From a virus, in IMG/VR virus record IMGVR_UViG_3300047469_000106, positions 1 to 27,150 of that record: 27,150 nt of DNA; one strand, 5' to 3'. Position 1 is the first letter of the stretch. The number at the start of each line of letters is the position of its first letter. The notes under the pieces were generated by a model that had not been told where the DNA came from, searched no databases, and was given only the letters and a program-made list of their open reading frames with translations. Of the stretch, positions 2,015 to 25,508 are shown one piece after another. The position numbers and the translations under genes are program-made.

Positions 2015-2509
2015 TTATCTCCTTACGATGGGGATGTTGTCGAGGTAGTCCATGCAATAGGCTTCGGCTTCCTTGCATTGCTGGGGTTCAAACAGGCCGA
2101 AATGGGTTTCGGCGGTGCTCAGGCGCATCTTGTCGGCCAGCCACTGATAGGCCTGGGTGCGGCTCATATGCTTGTCGCGCCAGATCGCTTCAAACGTGCG
2201 TTTGCAGGTGTTGCGCGCCTCACGCGTGCGCTTGTCGGCCAGCGTGCCAAGGGGCAGGTCGGTTTGAGGATGCAGACCGACGTAGGCATGGCAGCCACCG
2301 CAGAAGTACGCATAGGGCCAGTCGCCGTAGGTGCGGCCGTTGTAGATCGCGCTGTTTTCCACCAGCTCCACGACACCCGCGCAAAAGCGGCAGGTGGTCG
2401 GGATCGGCAGGGGATGGGCCACGCGAGCCAAGGCGCGACGGCTGACGTGCGGCAGCGGGAACGGCGGCGTGAGTTTGTCCAGGCTGTTGACGCGGGGATC
2501 GGTGCTCAT
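2015..2509 (-). CDS. Zinc-finger-containing protein (DUF3268-like)
   Basis: The protein has 164 residues. A four-cysteine zinc site is visible as CRFC at residues 40-43 and CGGC at 70-73, separated by the aromatic stretch YNGRTYGDWPYAYF. This spacing and the following GLHPQTDLPLGTLADK match the phage zinc-finger family DUF3268. The C-terminal half is helical and charged. Start 2509 is taken because GAGGT lies just upstream; a longer frame to 2593 has no ribosome site. Members of this family are common in phages of pseudomonads, but their role is unknown; nucleic-acid binding is the usual guess. It sits between a small membrane protein and an unknown protein in the same operon. Confidence 0.88.
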   Translation of the reverse strand: MSTDPRVNSLDKLTPPFPLPHVSRRALARVAHPLPIPTTCRFCAGVVELVENSAIYNGRTYGDWPYAYFCGGCHAYVGLHPQTDLPLGTLADKRTREARNTCKRTFEAIWRDKHMSRTQAYQWLADKMRLSTAETHFGLFEPQQCKEAEAYCMDYLDNIPIVRR

Positions 2510-2580
2510 GGGATACCTCAGTTGTGGGGGTTTCAGGAAAGCGCTTTCGCGGGAAAGCGCAGACCTCAAACGCCTGAATA

Positions 2581-2778
2581 TCAAACAAGCCACAGCGCGG
2601 CCAAACTGATCACTCCGGCGACGATCGCCAATCTACGCAGCGTGCGTTGACGTCGACGCGGGGGCATCAAGGCACTGCACGGGATGTCGTCCGTGCGCCC
2701 GATGCGGTAGCCGTGGCGGCGCCAGTAGTTGAGCCAATGCACTTCCAGGGTCGAGCACTTCATTGCTTGAGTTTTCAT
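2581..2778 (-). CDS. Small membrane protein
   Basis: The protein has 65 residues with a basic N-terminal half (RRHGYRIGR, PPRRRQRTLRR) followed by one C-terminal hydrophobic segment (LAIVAGVISLAALWLV, about residues 50-65). It is therefore probably a single-span protein with its basic tail in the cytoplasm. The ribosome site GAGAGG lies eight bases before the ATG. It is the first gene after the minus promoter at 2805-2840. No family is recognised; a role in superinfection exclusion or membrane anchoring is possible but unsupported. Confidence 0.75.
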   Translation of the reverse strand: MKTQAMKCSTLEVHWLNYWRRHGYRIGRTDDIPCSALMPPRRRQRTLRRLAIVAGVISLAALWLV

Positions 2779-2804
2779 ACCGGATGCCTCTCTTTTGTGG
2801 GTGG

Positions 2805-2840
2805 TGGTTCTACTTTAGAACCATAATGGCGCTGATTCAA
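2805..2840 (-). promoter_or_regulatory. Minus-strand promoter with palindromic -10 region
   Basis: On the minus strand TTGAAT (2835-2840) and TAAAGT (2812-2817) are 17 bases apart, fitting a sigma70 promoter for the 2778-1569 operon. The -10 lies inside the 8-3-8 inverted repeat TGGTTCTA-CTT-TAGAACCA (2805-2823). The inner 17 bases match elements at 13304, 15786 and 16294. Confidence 0.65.
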
Positions 2841-2900
2841 TATCATAACCACAAAAAACACGAAATAAAGCAATGAATAGGCGAATGGCATACAAGCAAA

Positions 2901-3002
2901 GGCGAAATTATGTTAGGGTGCGTTCTGTTTTAGGCAGTCAGTATTGGCAGTCCGTCGACCGCCAAGTTGGTTGGCCGTGCAATGGCGAAATGGTGCTAGG
3001 GT
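2901..3002 (+). promoter_or_regulatory. Two direct repeats upstream of the early operon
   Basis: GGCGAAATnnTGYTAGGGT occurs at 2901-2919 and 2984-3002, 83 bases apart, in the noncoding gap before the first plus-strand early gene. TGYTAGGGT could be an extended -10, but no good -35 is seen at normal spacing. The rest of the 274-base gap (2779-3052) holds the minus promoter and a small CAGGC/GCCTG hairpin near 3014-3028. Confidence 0.45.
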
Positions 3003-3052
3003 TTGCAGTGTCTCAGGCATTCCGCCTGGGCTTCTGAACGTGAGGGAATACC

Positions 3053-13349: not shown

Positions 13350-13892
13350 ATGACCACGAAGACCGCGACCAAGGCCAAACCCAAGGCCAAGGCACCAAGG
13401 AAGCCTAAAGCCACGCCCAGCGTCATGGGGCGCCCAACCAAGTACACACCCGAACTTTGCGACCTCATCTGTACCCAACTGGCTGCCGGCATGTCGTTGC
13501 GTACCGTGTGCGAACCGAAAAGCATGCCATCGGCGGTGTCGGTCTTTGCCTGGATGCGCAAGTATCCCGACTTTCTTAAGCAGTACGCGCGCGCGAAGGT
13601 TGAGAGCGCCGATGCCCTGGTTGAAGAGATGCTGGACATTGCCGACGACGGCCGCAATGACTGGATGGAAGTGTTCGACAAGGAAGGCGAATGCGTGGGT
13701 TACAAGGTCAACGGCGAGCACGTTCAGCGCTCAAAGCTGCGTGTCGATACGCGCAAATGGGCGGCCTCGAAGCTGTCACCGAAGAAGTACGGCGACAAGC
13801 TGGACTTGAACCACGACGTGAAGGAAGGCGGCGTGTTGCACGAATTGTTTGCCCAACTGTGCCCCAAAACCTTTGGACCGGTGCTGGAATGA
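13350..13892 (+). CDS. terS: Terminase small subunit, Sf6-type
   Basis: The protein has 180 residues. After a lysine/alanine-rich N-terminal tail (TKAKPKAKAPRKPKATPS), residues 27-75 carry the DNA-recognition helices seen in Sf6 gp1-like subunits (GRPTKYTPELCDLICTQLAA, then SVFAWMRKYPDFLKQYARA). Residues 80-150 (ALVEEMLDIADDGRNDWMEV through WAASKLSPKKYGDKLDLNHD) form the oligomer ring and central domain. The subunit recognises the packaging site and controls the large subunit. The start has GAGG upstream. Its stop overlaps the start of a 23-residue leader ORF that precedes the large subunit. Confidence 0.9.
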   Translation: MTTKTATKAKPKAKAPRKPKATPSVMGRPTKYTPELCDLICTQLAAGMSLRTVCEPKSMPSAVSVFAWMRKYPDFLKQYARAKVESADALVEEMLDIADDGRNDWMEVFDKEGECVGYKVNGEHVQRSKLRVDTRKWAASKLSPKKYGDKLDLNHDVKEGGVLHELFAQLCPKTFGPVLE

Positions 13893-13960
13893 GCGCCTAC
13901 GCGAAATCTGAGCAAGTGGCTGGGTGGTTGCCCGCCACTTTTCACGTAGGAGCGCGCTAA
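13889..13960 (+). CDS. 23-residue leader peptide between terminase genes
   Basis: ATG 13889 overlaps the small-terminase stop (ATGA) and opens 23 codons (MSAYAKSEQVAGWLPATF and five more) ending in TAA directly followed by the large-terminase ATG. Almost the whole frame lies inside the hairpin at 13893-13955. Ribosomes translating it would melt the stem and free the next ribosome site. It may instead be a by-product of the stem. Confidence 0.5.
   Translation: MSAYAKSEQVAGWLPATFHVGAR
13893..13955 (+). promoter_or_regulatory. Long hairpin covering the large-terminase ribosome site
   Basis: Inner stem AAGTGGC(T)GGG / CCCGCCACTT (13914-13924 and 13931-13940) with a six-base loop is extended by GCGCCTACG.GA (13893-13904) pairing with TC.CGTAGG..GCGC (13942-13955), with small bulges and one eight-base internal loop. 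The AGGAG ribosome site of terL (13948-13952) is inside the outer stem. It could be a translational switch, a packaging site, or a degraded REP-like element. Confidence 0.7.
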
Positions 13961-15541
13961 ATGGCCGCTGTCATGGCGTTCAAGGCCATCGAGGACATGA
14001 ACATTGACGAGTTCGCGCAGGCGCTGGCCGACCCGCATTGGCGCATGTCGAACCTGTATTACATCCGCACCAAGGACGCCGCGGCTGACGACGACGAGGA
14101 CGAGGACGCCCAAGGCGTGGTGGTGAAGTTCAAGCCGAACCGGGCGCAGAAGGCGTTGATGAGTCGCTTGTGGTATCGCAACCTGATCCTCAAAGCGCGT
14201 CAGTTGGGCTTCACGACCTGGATTCAAATCTACTTTCTCGACGTCGCGCTGTTCACCCCGAACCTCAACCTTGGCGTGCTGGCCCACACGGAGGACGCGG
14301 CCAAGAAGATCTTCAAAAAGATTAAGTTCGCCTACGACCGCTTGCCCCCGGCACTGCGCAAGGCGATGCCATTGACCACCTGCAGCGTGATGGAAATGAC
14401 GCTGGCCAACGGCTCAACCATCCAGGTCGGCACATCGATGCGCGGCGACACCATCCATTATCTGCACGTCAGCGAGTACGGCAAAATCTGTGCGATGTAC
14501 CCGCTACGCGCCGAGGAAATCGTCACGGGTACGTTCCCGGCCGTGCCGGACACCGGGATTATCTTCATTGAGTCGACCGCCGAAGGCCGTGGCGGGGACT
14601 TTCACGACAAGGCCAACCGCGCCGAGGCGTTGCAGGAGCTGGGCGCACCCCTTCGGCCTAAGCAGTTCCGCTTTCACTTCTTTCCGTGGCACGACGAGGC
14701 CGGTTATCAGTGCGACCCGGCCGGCGTGATCATCAGCAAGAAGGAGCACGAATACTTCGACGAGCTGGAGAGCAAGCTGGGCAAGGTCATCAGACTGGAG
14801 CAGCGCGCATGGTGGATCGTCACCCGCGACGAGCTGTTCAGCGGCCAAGATGAACGGATGTGGCAGGAATACCCGTCGACATCCAAAGAAGCCTTCCAGC
14901 AGTCAGCCGAAGGCACCTACTACAAGATGCAATTGGTGGCCGCCCGCAAGCAGAAGCGCATCACCACCGTGCCGTATCACCCCGGCCTGCCGGTCAATAC
15001 GTTCTGGGACATCGGCCACAGCGACGGCTGCGCCATCTGGCTACACCAGCGCGTGGGCCAGCGCGACAACTTCATTGGCTTCATTGAGGGATGGGTTGAG
15101 CCGTACAGCTACTTTGTCGCGGAGCTTCAGAGGACCGGCTACGTGTGGGGCACGCATTACCTACCGCACGACGGCAATCACATCAGGCAGGGCGAGGACG
15201 TCAACAAGAGCCCCAAGCAGATGCTCGAAGACCTGGGCCTACGCCACGTCGAAGTGGTCCCCCGTGTCAGCGAACTACAGCACGGCATTCAGGCCACGCG
15301 GGATGCGTTCAGCAGCTACTGGTTTGACGAGGTGGCGTGCAAAGAAGGCCTGCAACACATCGAGTTGTATCGCAAAGCCTGGAGCGTGCAGACGCAGACA
15401 TGGACCGATCGCCCGTTGAAGGACGGCCACACCGAAGCCGCCGATGCCCTACGGCAACACGCGCAGGGCTACGTCGATCATGGCCCGCAGAAGTCAGCCG
15501 CCAGTGTGCGCGGCACCCGCAAGAGCTGGAGAGTGTCATGA
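13961..15541 (+). CDS. terL: Terminase large subunit
   Basis: The protein has 526 residues: the ATPase and nuclease of the DNA packaging motor at the portal. A non-classical Walker A lies at 78-86 (KARQLGFTT), with the lysine ahead of the loop as in many phage terminases. A Walker B-like strand ends in HVSEYG (169-174) with glutamate 172 as likely catalytic residue, and the coupling motif ESTAEG is at 204-209. The RNase H-like nuclease domain shows D350 (TFWDIGHSDG), D404 (LPHDG) and D495 (EAADAL). Length fits the family. ATG 13961 follows the leader-peptide stop without a gap; the ribosome site AGGAG is about ten bases upstream, inside a hairpin. The stop overlaps the next gene (ATGA). Confidence 0.96.
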   Translation: MAAVMAFKAIEDMNIDEFAQALADPHWRMSNLYYIRTKDAAADDDEDEDAQGVVVKFKPNRAQKALMSRLWYRNLILKARQLGFTTWIQIYFLDVALFTPNLNLGVLAHTEDAAKKIFKKIKFAYDRLPPALRKAMPLTTCSVMEMTLANGSTIQVGTSMRGDTIHYLHVSEYGKICAMYPLRAEEIVTGTFPAVPDTGIIFIESTAEGRGGDFHDKANRAEALQELGAPLRPKQFRFHFFPWHDEAGYQCDPAGVIISKKEHEYFDELESKLGKVIRLEQRAWWIVTRDELFSGQDERMWQEYPSTSKEAFQQSAEGTYYKMQLVAARKQKRITTVPYHPGLPVNTFWDIGHSDGCAIWLHQRVGQRDNFIGFIEGWVEPYSYFVAELQRTGYVWGTHYLPHDGNHIRQGEDVNKSPKQMLEDLGLRHVEVVPRVSELQHGIQATRDAFSSYWFDEVACKEGLQHIELYRKAWSVQTQTWTDRPLKDGHTEAADALRQHAQGYVDHGPQKSAASVRGTRKSWRVS

Positions 15542-24653: not shown

Positions 24654-25508
24654 GTGAACCGCTTTGCCCTCGATGGCGGCGAGCTGAATGGTGATCCTCT
24701 CGTTCTGATGAACGATGAGGTGGTTGCGTTCGCCCTCGGGCTGGACGGCAGCATCGCCAACGGCATCGTGGGGCAAGGCACGTTCCCATTGCACCTGGAC
24801 ACCCTCGGCGAGCTGTCGATGGTGGCCGCGCTGGAAGGTACAGCGACGATCGACACCACGGCCGATGGCGTGCTGATGATCGGCGTGACGCTGATCGGCG
24901 ACTCGGGCACGGTATTGGCGCTGCAAGGCGACCTGATTCGCTGGGGCATGATCGTCGGCCAAGCCGATGTCGTGGTGGGGCTGGACGGCGACATCGTGGC
25001 GGTGCCGGCGATCAGTGCCTCTTTCACCATGCAACTGGAAGGCGTGCTGGACCTGCATATCGCGGCCGGCGTGCAGATCATTGGCACGCTGCCGGTGGTG
25101 TTCGATGGCGAGCTTGAAGGCTGGATTGGCCATGGCGTGGAAATCGACAGTCCACCGGGCAACATCCAGATCGAGGTCGGGCAGTGGGGCGAAGCGAACC
25201 TGTTGGCCCAGTTGGCACCGGCTGAGTTTGCCACGGTGCTCAGGCTCGACGGTGACGGCCGACTCGGCGCGCATCCTGAGCTGGCCGGCTATCTACCGCT
25301 GTCGAACCACGTTCAGTGCGAGCTGGAGGTGTGGCACTACGTCTACGCGAGTGGCGAGCTGTCGATTCAGCTCAAGCTGGTCGACAACCCTTACGGGCGG
25401 CCGCCGTTACCCCCGGATCATTACATCGAGGCGCCAATCGGCCGTGTCTTGCGCGTAGGCGCTGAACACCGGGGCTTCTTGGTGCCGCCAGACAGGAGAG
25501 CGCTGTGA
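24654..25508 (+). CDS. Tail protein with ten-residue glycine repeats
   Basis: The protein has 284 residues from GTG 24654, placed directly after the upstream stop. It begins MNRFALDGGELNG, as in a family of phage tail proteins. From residue 32 to 112 glycine occurs at every tenth position (32, 42, 52, ... 112) with alternating hydrophobic residues between, and again at 152, which fits a beta-solenoid or beta-spiral shaft. The C-terminus (VLRVGAEHRGFLVPPDRRAL) is more basic. Nearby genes place it in the tail; the repeat fold is an inference. Confidence 0.8.
   Translation: MNRFALDGGELNGDPLVLMNDEVVAFALGLDGSIANGIVGQGTFPLHLDTLGELSMVAALEGTATIDTTADGVLMIGVTLIGDSGTVLALQGDLIRWGMIVGQADVVVGLDGDIVAVPAISASFTMQLEGVLDLHIAAGVQIIGTLPVVFDGELEGWIGHGVEIDSPPGNIQIEVGQWGEANLLAQLAPAEFATVLRLDGDGRLGAHPELAGYLPLSNHVQCELEVWHYVYASGELSIQLKLVDNPYGRPPLPPDHYIEAPIGRVLRVGAEHRGFLVPPDRRAL

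Follow-up and report, generated by a model that had tools for sequence, protein, structure and literature searches.

A dispersed gammaproteobacterial palindrome, probably mobile or recombination-associated, at the terS-terL junction of a phage clade

Introduction

The small and large terminase genes of the viral DNA analysed here (27,150 nucleotides, hereafter the window) are separated by a short segment that folds on itself and at the same time encodes a small open reading frame (Table 1). This arrangement raises the question of whether the junction carries a regulatory leader built for the terminase genes or a sequence that reached it from elsewhere. An initial annotation, made from the sequence of the window, favoured a coupling device in which translation of the leader opens the stem so that terL is made only after terS, and named a packaging site and a degraded REP-like element as alternatives.

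Results and Discussion

Anatomy and fold of the junction

The structural elements on which the initial annotation was based are present. The leader ATG overlaps the terS stop codon and the leader TAA directly adjoins the terL ATG at 13961, which confirms the 23-codon frame between the two genes. The 63-base self-folding region was recovered at the place noted, in the form of inverted repeats at 13893-13906/13940-13953 (14 nt, 86%) and 13914-13923/13931-13940 (10 nt, 90%), with 15 of 20 arm pairs standard, and the ribosome site said to lie within the stem was found there as TAGGAG in the right arm.

Table 1. Coordinates of the terminase genes and of the parts of the intervening element in the window.
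Feature	Position	Strand	Evidence or remark
terS, small terminase subunit, 180 aa	13350-13892	+	ORF; PHROG 1482 terminase small subunit, E 1.7e-45
23-codon leader ORF, ATG..TAA, encoding MSAYAKSEQVAGWLPATFHVGAR	13889-13960	+	Peptide not conserved
Imperfect palindrome of a dispersed family, 63 nt here, ~65 nt family-wide	13893-13955	+	R2 match; fold z -2.4
Palindrome left arm GCGCCTACGCGAAATCTG (family consensus GCGCnCCTACGTGAAATCTGA)	13893-13910	+	Repeat search, alignments, R2
Inner hairpin AAGTGGC.GGG / CCC.GCCACTT	13914-13940	+	Fold, inverted repeat, alignments
Palindrome right arm TTTCACGTAGGAGCGC	13940-13955	+	Inverted repeat, R2, alignments
TAGGAG, probable terL Shine-Dalgarno, inside right arm, 8 nt 5' of terL ATG	13947-13952	+	
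terL, large terminase subunit, 526 aa	13961-15541	+	PHROG 2 terminase large subunit, E 1.2e-26

Positions 13889-13960 fold at -30.8 kcal/mol (z -2.42) into two stems with an asymmetric internal loop, an energy that 4 of 200 shuffled sequences equal. When the longer segment 13880-13975 is folded, the hairpin remains lower in energy than the shuffled average (z -2.01), but the outer GCGC pairs upstream instead of with the partner that had been claimed for it. Ranked among 72-nt segments of this GC-rich sequence, the hairpin is 108th of 4,513, and about 3% of random segments reach such a z. More stable 72-nt segments, of -39 to -41 kcal/mol, lie at 24949, 79, 26743 and 3511. By energy alone the hairpin is a mild to moderate outlier and is not remarkable.

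A dispersed palindrome family

The hairpin is a member of a family of palindromes that extends well outside this phage. When the phage consensus was used in a blast search, plasmids and further phages were hit as well, and scans for the left-arm pattern recovered copies in Pseudomonas and other gammaproteobacteria, many of which carry, at the same distance, a complementary right arm that had not been selected for. Because many members were first found through this pattern, the conservation of the left arm is partly ascertained. Two covariance models were built, R1 from 14 copies and R2 from 18 non-phage (bacterial or plasmid) palindromes only; three of the 18 R2 rows are not named chromosomes and derive from a prophage-like contig (L135), a metagenome bin (L149) and a plasmid. 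The arms of the family approximate GCGCnCCTACGTGAAATCTGA and TCAGATTTCACGTAGGnGCGC around a variable loop, and in the alignments the inner hairpin AAGTGGC.GGG is typical of a phage and plasmid subgroup and variable in the remaining members. Among the non-phage copies (set A2) the covariation score is 0.216 against 0.170 when shuffled, with 0 of 500 shuffles reaching the observed value and slid controls at or below 0.127; as the sequences are related, this covariation is supportive only.

Across the 27,150 bases of the window R2 matches a single place, 13891/13893-13955, with E values of 2e-10 on the minus strand and 1.3e-9 on the plus strand. It is this homology, and not the folding energy, that makes the hairpin noteworthy. 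A chance hairpin in GC-rich sequence would be in keeping with a z of only -2.4 and with the 107 other segments of the 4,513 that fold equally well or better, but it is extremely improbable given that the place is the only one found by an independent family model (E 2e-10) and that the same sequence occurs in 12 related loci.

At an R2 threshold of E 1e-4, homologues are present in 66 of 149 Pseudomonas genomes, in 17 of 99 genomes from the family to which G009, the Pantoea genome with locus L157, belongs, and in 6 of 200 Pseudomonadota genomes, two of the six being G009 itself and an already-counted Pseudomonas. Copies per genome are few (1-14 matches, both strands counted). No match was obtained by blastn in E. 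coli genomes, no Rfam family was matched at the gathering or at a permissive threshold by the window, the element or the pQBR57 copy, and a tRNA search returned none.

The element in terminase relatives

The relatives considered here are 33 loci from TerL searches of IMG/VR, and in 12 related loci R2 matches on the 3' side of terS or after the gene that follows it. More specifically, the same element lies immediately 5' of terL in L078 (95% TerL identity) and L082 (77%); directly 3' of terS, before other genes, in L079, L080, L081, L083, L084, L086, L091, L101 and L103 (82-86%); and in Pseudomonas phage Itty13 (59%) between a GIY-YIG gene following terS and a small gene preceding terL. Every relative with a TerL identity of 77% or more and an available upstream region has it in the same position. 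Among the TerL relatives L085, L087-L090 and L093-L110 there was no R2 match, the element-bearing L091, L101 and L103 excepted; relatives at 65-68% TerL identity (L085, L087, L088, L106) are without the element, and the junctions of six annotated relatives (Skulduggery, phiC725A, BcepMigl, PEp14, LASTA and Parlo) hold no convincing match, the best being that of Skulduggery at 13 bits. Below 77% TerL identity the relatives, except Itty13, do not have it, and there terS often overlaps the next start directly.

The empty junctions are revealing of what may have preceded the element. In L087, L088 and L106 the stop codon of terS and the start codon of terL share an ATGA, and in L088 and L106 the overlap reads ATGAGC, the same letters with which the leader of the window begins. 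A leader start that kept ATGAGC is the remnant to be expected if an insertion came just behind the old overlap.

While the place of the element is fixed, the cargo 3' of it changes. There is none in the window, L078 and L082, a small gene and an RNase H-like gene in the L079 group, a GIY-YIG protein in L086, and a small gene in Itty13, where the GIY-YIG gene is on the other side. A GIY-YIG gene flanks the element on one side in one phage and on the other side in another (L114:2488-3000 and L086:2252-2980); the junction between terS and terL appears to be a hot spot for homing or insertion. L079, L081 and L101 (~2280-3004) encode two proteins between terS and terL, one small, variable and of CxxC type, the other RNase H-like (PHROG 2259 in L101), and the CxxC protein begins with the translated palindrome.

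The leader reading frame and terminase coupling

Conservation of the 23 codons, a check proposed with the coupling device, was not found. The window and L078, whose TerL proteins are 95% identical, differ in the leader at 4/7/4 sites by codon position, an even spread over the three positions, with eight of the nine changed codons nonsynonymous and one synonymous; against L082 the differences are 7/7/8, and in Itty13 the element is read in another frame (LREIWPPAWG). The reading frame has 47 codons in L082, continues into a protein of 76-103 residues in the L079 group, and continues into a GIY-YIG, NUMOD3-bearing protein in L086. Judged from these alignments, the item that is constant across relatives is the DNA palindrome and not the peptide. 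In a thermodynamic model, the terL Shine-Dalgarno is predicted to be unpaired at 0.41 when the element is free and 0.34 when the leader side is melted in the window, with corresponding values of 0.09 and 0.21 in L078 and of 0.15 and 0.03 in L082.

These results bear directly on a dedicated translational coupling, according to which ribosomes leaving terS re-initiate at the 23-codon leader, open the hairpin and free the terL Shine-Dalgarno. The anatomy fits, as the annotation had it: there is an ATGA overlap, the Shine-Dalgarno lies in the right arm, the leader ends at the terL ATG, and start-stop overlaps are also seen in L078, L079, L081, L082, L083 and Itty13. The predictions of conserved codons and position that are specific to such a device nevertheless fail, since neither the leader codons nor the frame is conserved and the element is away from the terL start in most relatives, where another gene opens with it. 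As to Shine-Dalgarno exposure, melting of the leader in silico does not raise accessibility in the window or in L082 and raises it slightly in L078, so that the calculation lends the coupling model no support. The palindrome moreover recurs in bacterial chromosomes and plasmids without connection to terminase genes. Dedicated coupling from terS to terL is not supported and appears unlikely, and the palindrome does not look like a purpose-built terminase coupling device; passive start-stop coupling at terS-terL is possible.

T7 and other phage groups

R2 matches the genome of T7 (V01146) at a single place, 36878-36942 (L258:599-663; 65 nt, 35.5 bits; E 1.1e-10 with respect to this genome). The match lies between the small terminase gene (gene 18) and gene 18.5, the start of which is inside the loop. 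As the T7-like phages were noticed via the left arm, the E value has to be judged against the whole set of phages searched; on a rough calibration, scaling it to 2.3 billion bases gives ~6e-6. Once R2 had matched over its full length, chance was dropped as an explanation of the T7-like match. Przondovirus (L116) and Kayfunavirus NS1 (L256) match R2 at the same place. The T7 gene 18-18.5 region thus resembles the window in having the palindrome just after the small terminase gene and differs from it in that the loop carries the start of gene 18.5 (Rz) and not of terL. Conservation of the left arm extends across the T7-like phages, and the arm may for that reason serve a separate function.

In Gajwadongvirus relatives, partial copies follow the RNA polymerase gene; PP99 and VL73 carry a further one at another location, within a long non-coding stretch. 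The left arm and inner hairpin were seen in the non-coding region 3' of the RNA polymerase gene in L252 (PP99), L115 (Roth32), L254 and L257; other strong hairpins adjoin in this Gajwadongvirus region, along with repeated CTAGTATACTAG and TACTAGTTGGCTAGTA motifs.

The occurrence of the palindrome beside terS in two unrelated phage groups is what a DNA packaging (pac or cos) site would lead one to expect, as the initial annotation had allowed. However, the palindrome is abundant in bacterial chromosomes and plasmids, many TerL relatives lack it between terS and terL, and the genome ends of T7 lie elsewhere than the palindrome. A packaging role is accordingly very improbable.

MITE-like repeats and tyrosine recombinases

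Many Pseudomonas copies form the core of a repeat of ~160 bp with the termini AGGCTGTGTRAAAACG and CGTTTTYACACAGCCT, and in nearly all of these the palindrome is 41 nt from the right terminus. The same arrangement is also found in enterobacterial genomes, and the MITE-like repeat was seen in L185-L203, L232-L251, L270, L272 and L274. Membership of the window copy in the AGGCTGTG MITE-like repeat was not found, positions 13893-13955 being without such flanking termini. Several MITE-like copies have sequences such as CGGCC or CGACCC on both flanks, a possible target duplication of 5-6 bp. At L269 (G450:C22:298725, 300615, 302738) three copies in direct orientation are ~2 kb apart, a cassette-boundary-like spacing, and two of them have matching flanks.

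Copies of the palindrome are also found close to tyrosine recombinase genes. Within eight genomes, 10 of 36 copies are at most 1 kb from a PF00589 domain against 0.25 expected (binomial P ~5e-14), a P value that is overstated because the genomes, which were already under study and some of which were chosen for neighbours seen, are not an unbiased sample and because some copies are paralogues; the size of the enrichment is hard to explain away. Standalone copies adjoin integrase genes of the DUF6538 type (L184) and of other phage-integrase types (L198, L144). In L157 and L201 the element is ~30 nt upstream of the start of a Cre-like recombinase gene, and L271 is a third Cre-like case, with the element at or upstream of the 5' end. 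Across L157, L201 and L271, which belong to Pantoea and relatives, the palindrome upstream of the Cre-like genes occurs in both orientations.

Integron attC sites are imperfect palindromes of similar size with a variable loop and outer RYYYAAC/GTTRRRY boxes. The present family is like them in its imperfect symmetry, size and variable loop and in the tyrosine recombinases nearby. It is unlike them in its outer arms, which in the alignments read GCGCnCCTACG / CGTAGGnGCGC with no GTTRRRY/RYYYAAC boxes, and in its neighbouring recombinases, which are Cre-like or phage-integrase-like. The palindrome might conceivably be a hairpin recombination site of attC-like architecture and unrelated sequence, used by gammaproteobacterial tyrosine recombinases, and its presence next to phage terS, in this phage and in T7-like phages, would then mark a hot spot of cargo exchange; we regard this more specific proposal as rather doubtful.

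Comparison with known repeats

Rickettsia palindromic elements are read through in frame and can form part of proteins. The element resembles them in its in-frame read-through into proteins in the L079 group and L086, and differs in sequence, in host and in being mostly intergenic. In-frame palindromes are also mentioned in a treatment of GTAG-type REPs, which are hairpins of 20-40 nt with an unpaired GTAG at one end and a RAYT system (PMC3733652). Like these, the present element is a dispersed gammaproteobacterial palindrome with a GTAG, here in the right arm; unlike these, it measures 65 nt instead of 20-40. Identity with GTAG REPs was rejected on structure, as the GTAG of the window is paired within a stem of 63 nt. 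The suggestion of a degraded REP-like element was correct as to a dispersed palindrome and incorrect as to the GTAG type, and came nearer the truth than coupling.

In being short, non-coding, dispersed and bounded by inverted repeats, the family is like the MITE-like repeats of Pseudomonas (SBW25 families as described, PMC2718517; MITEPsy1/2, PMC3189936; TIMEs, PMC4133298). Its termini AGGCTGTGTRAAAACG differ from those printed for MITEPsy1/2 (PMC3189936), and the named P. syringae MITEs were rejected since their termini are not those seen here. Literature searches returned no description of the element. Repeat families of Pseudomonas have been catalogued, and the MITE form seen in chromosomes may have been named there already; its occurrence in phages and its association with recombinases seem to be new.

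Origin and role of the junction palindrome

We consider it probable, with moderate confidence, that the hairpin is the copy, carried by a phage, of a gammaproteobacterial palindrome of ~65 nt that is dispersed and probably mobile or recombination-associated, and that this copy settled at the terS-terL junction and now supplies the terL Shine-Dalgarno. The palindrome would have arrived as a mobile or recombination-associated element and become resident at the terS-terL overlap in a phage clade. Such an arrival is suggested because copies are strongly over-represented next to genes of tyrosine recombinases, while further copies make up the core of a MITE-like repeat. The insertion would have separated terL from the old ATGA overlap, so that the old terL start would now open a short read-through frame and the right arm would give terL its new Shine-Dalgarno; if the hairpin controls terL at all, this would be a side effect of the insertion. 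On the other side, mobility is not seen within the clade, each genome examined having one clear copy at a fixed place, and a target-site duplication was not demonstrated for the phage copies.

The orientation and mismatches of the phage copies also sit uneasily with an inert insertion. The arms of the phage set are 74% paired against 27-58% when slid, the element is oriented with transcription in all phages inspected, and among non-Watson-Crick arm pairs G-T exceeds A-C by 41 to 19 in one set and by 24 to 8 in another. The sense orientation and the excess of G-T over A-C suggest selection on RNA or on a single DNA strand. Both features argue for a cis-acting RNA hairpin that serves in mRNA processing or stability, for example as a substrate of RNase III, and separates terS expression from the downstream genes, and the same location behind the small terminase in T7-like phages and the two stems with an asymmetric internal loop are in agreement with it. 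Such a hairpin is a tentative possibility, as many chromosomal copies lie within MITE-like repeats, no Rfam family matches, and RNase III needs no such sequence conservation. It is compatible with an origin from the dispersed palindrome, and the molecular role of the element, as recombinase site or as RNA hairpin, is one that we infer.

Under the origin favoured here, from a dispersed and probably mobile or recombination-associated palindrome, the locus gains significance beyond one phage. The palindrome occurs in the chromosomes of hosts, on plasmids, in MITE-like repeats and in two or more unrelated groups of phages, T7 included, and it is enriched beside tyrosine recombinases, which points to one recognition system across replicons. 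Because T7 and Itty13 are cultured, the role of the palindrome is testable. The locus also carries a warning, in that a hairpin with a small reading frame between two genes can reflect an insertion that is read through and not a regulatory leader.
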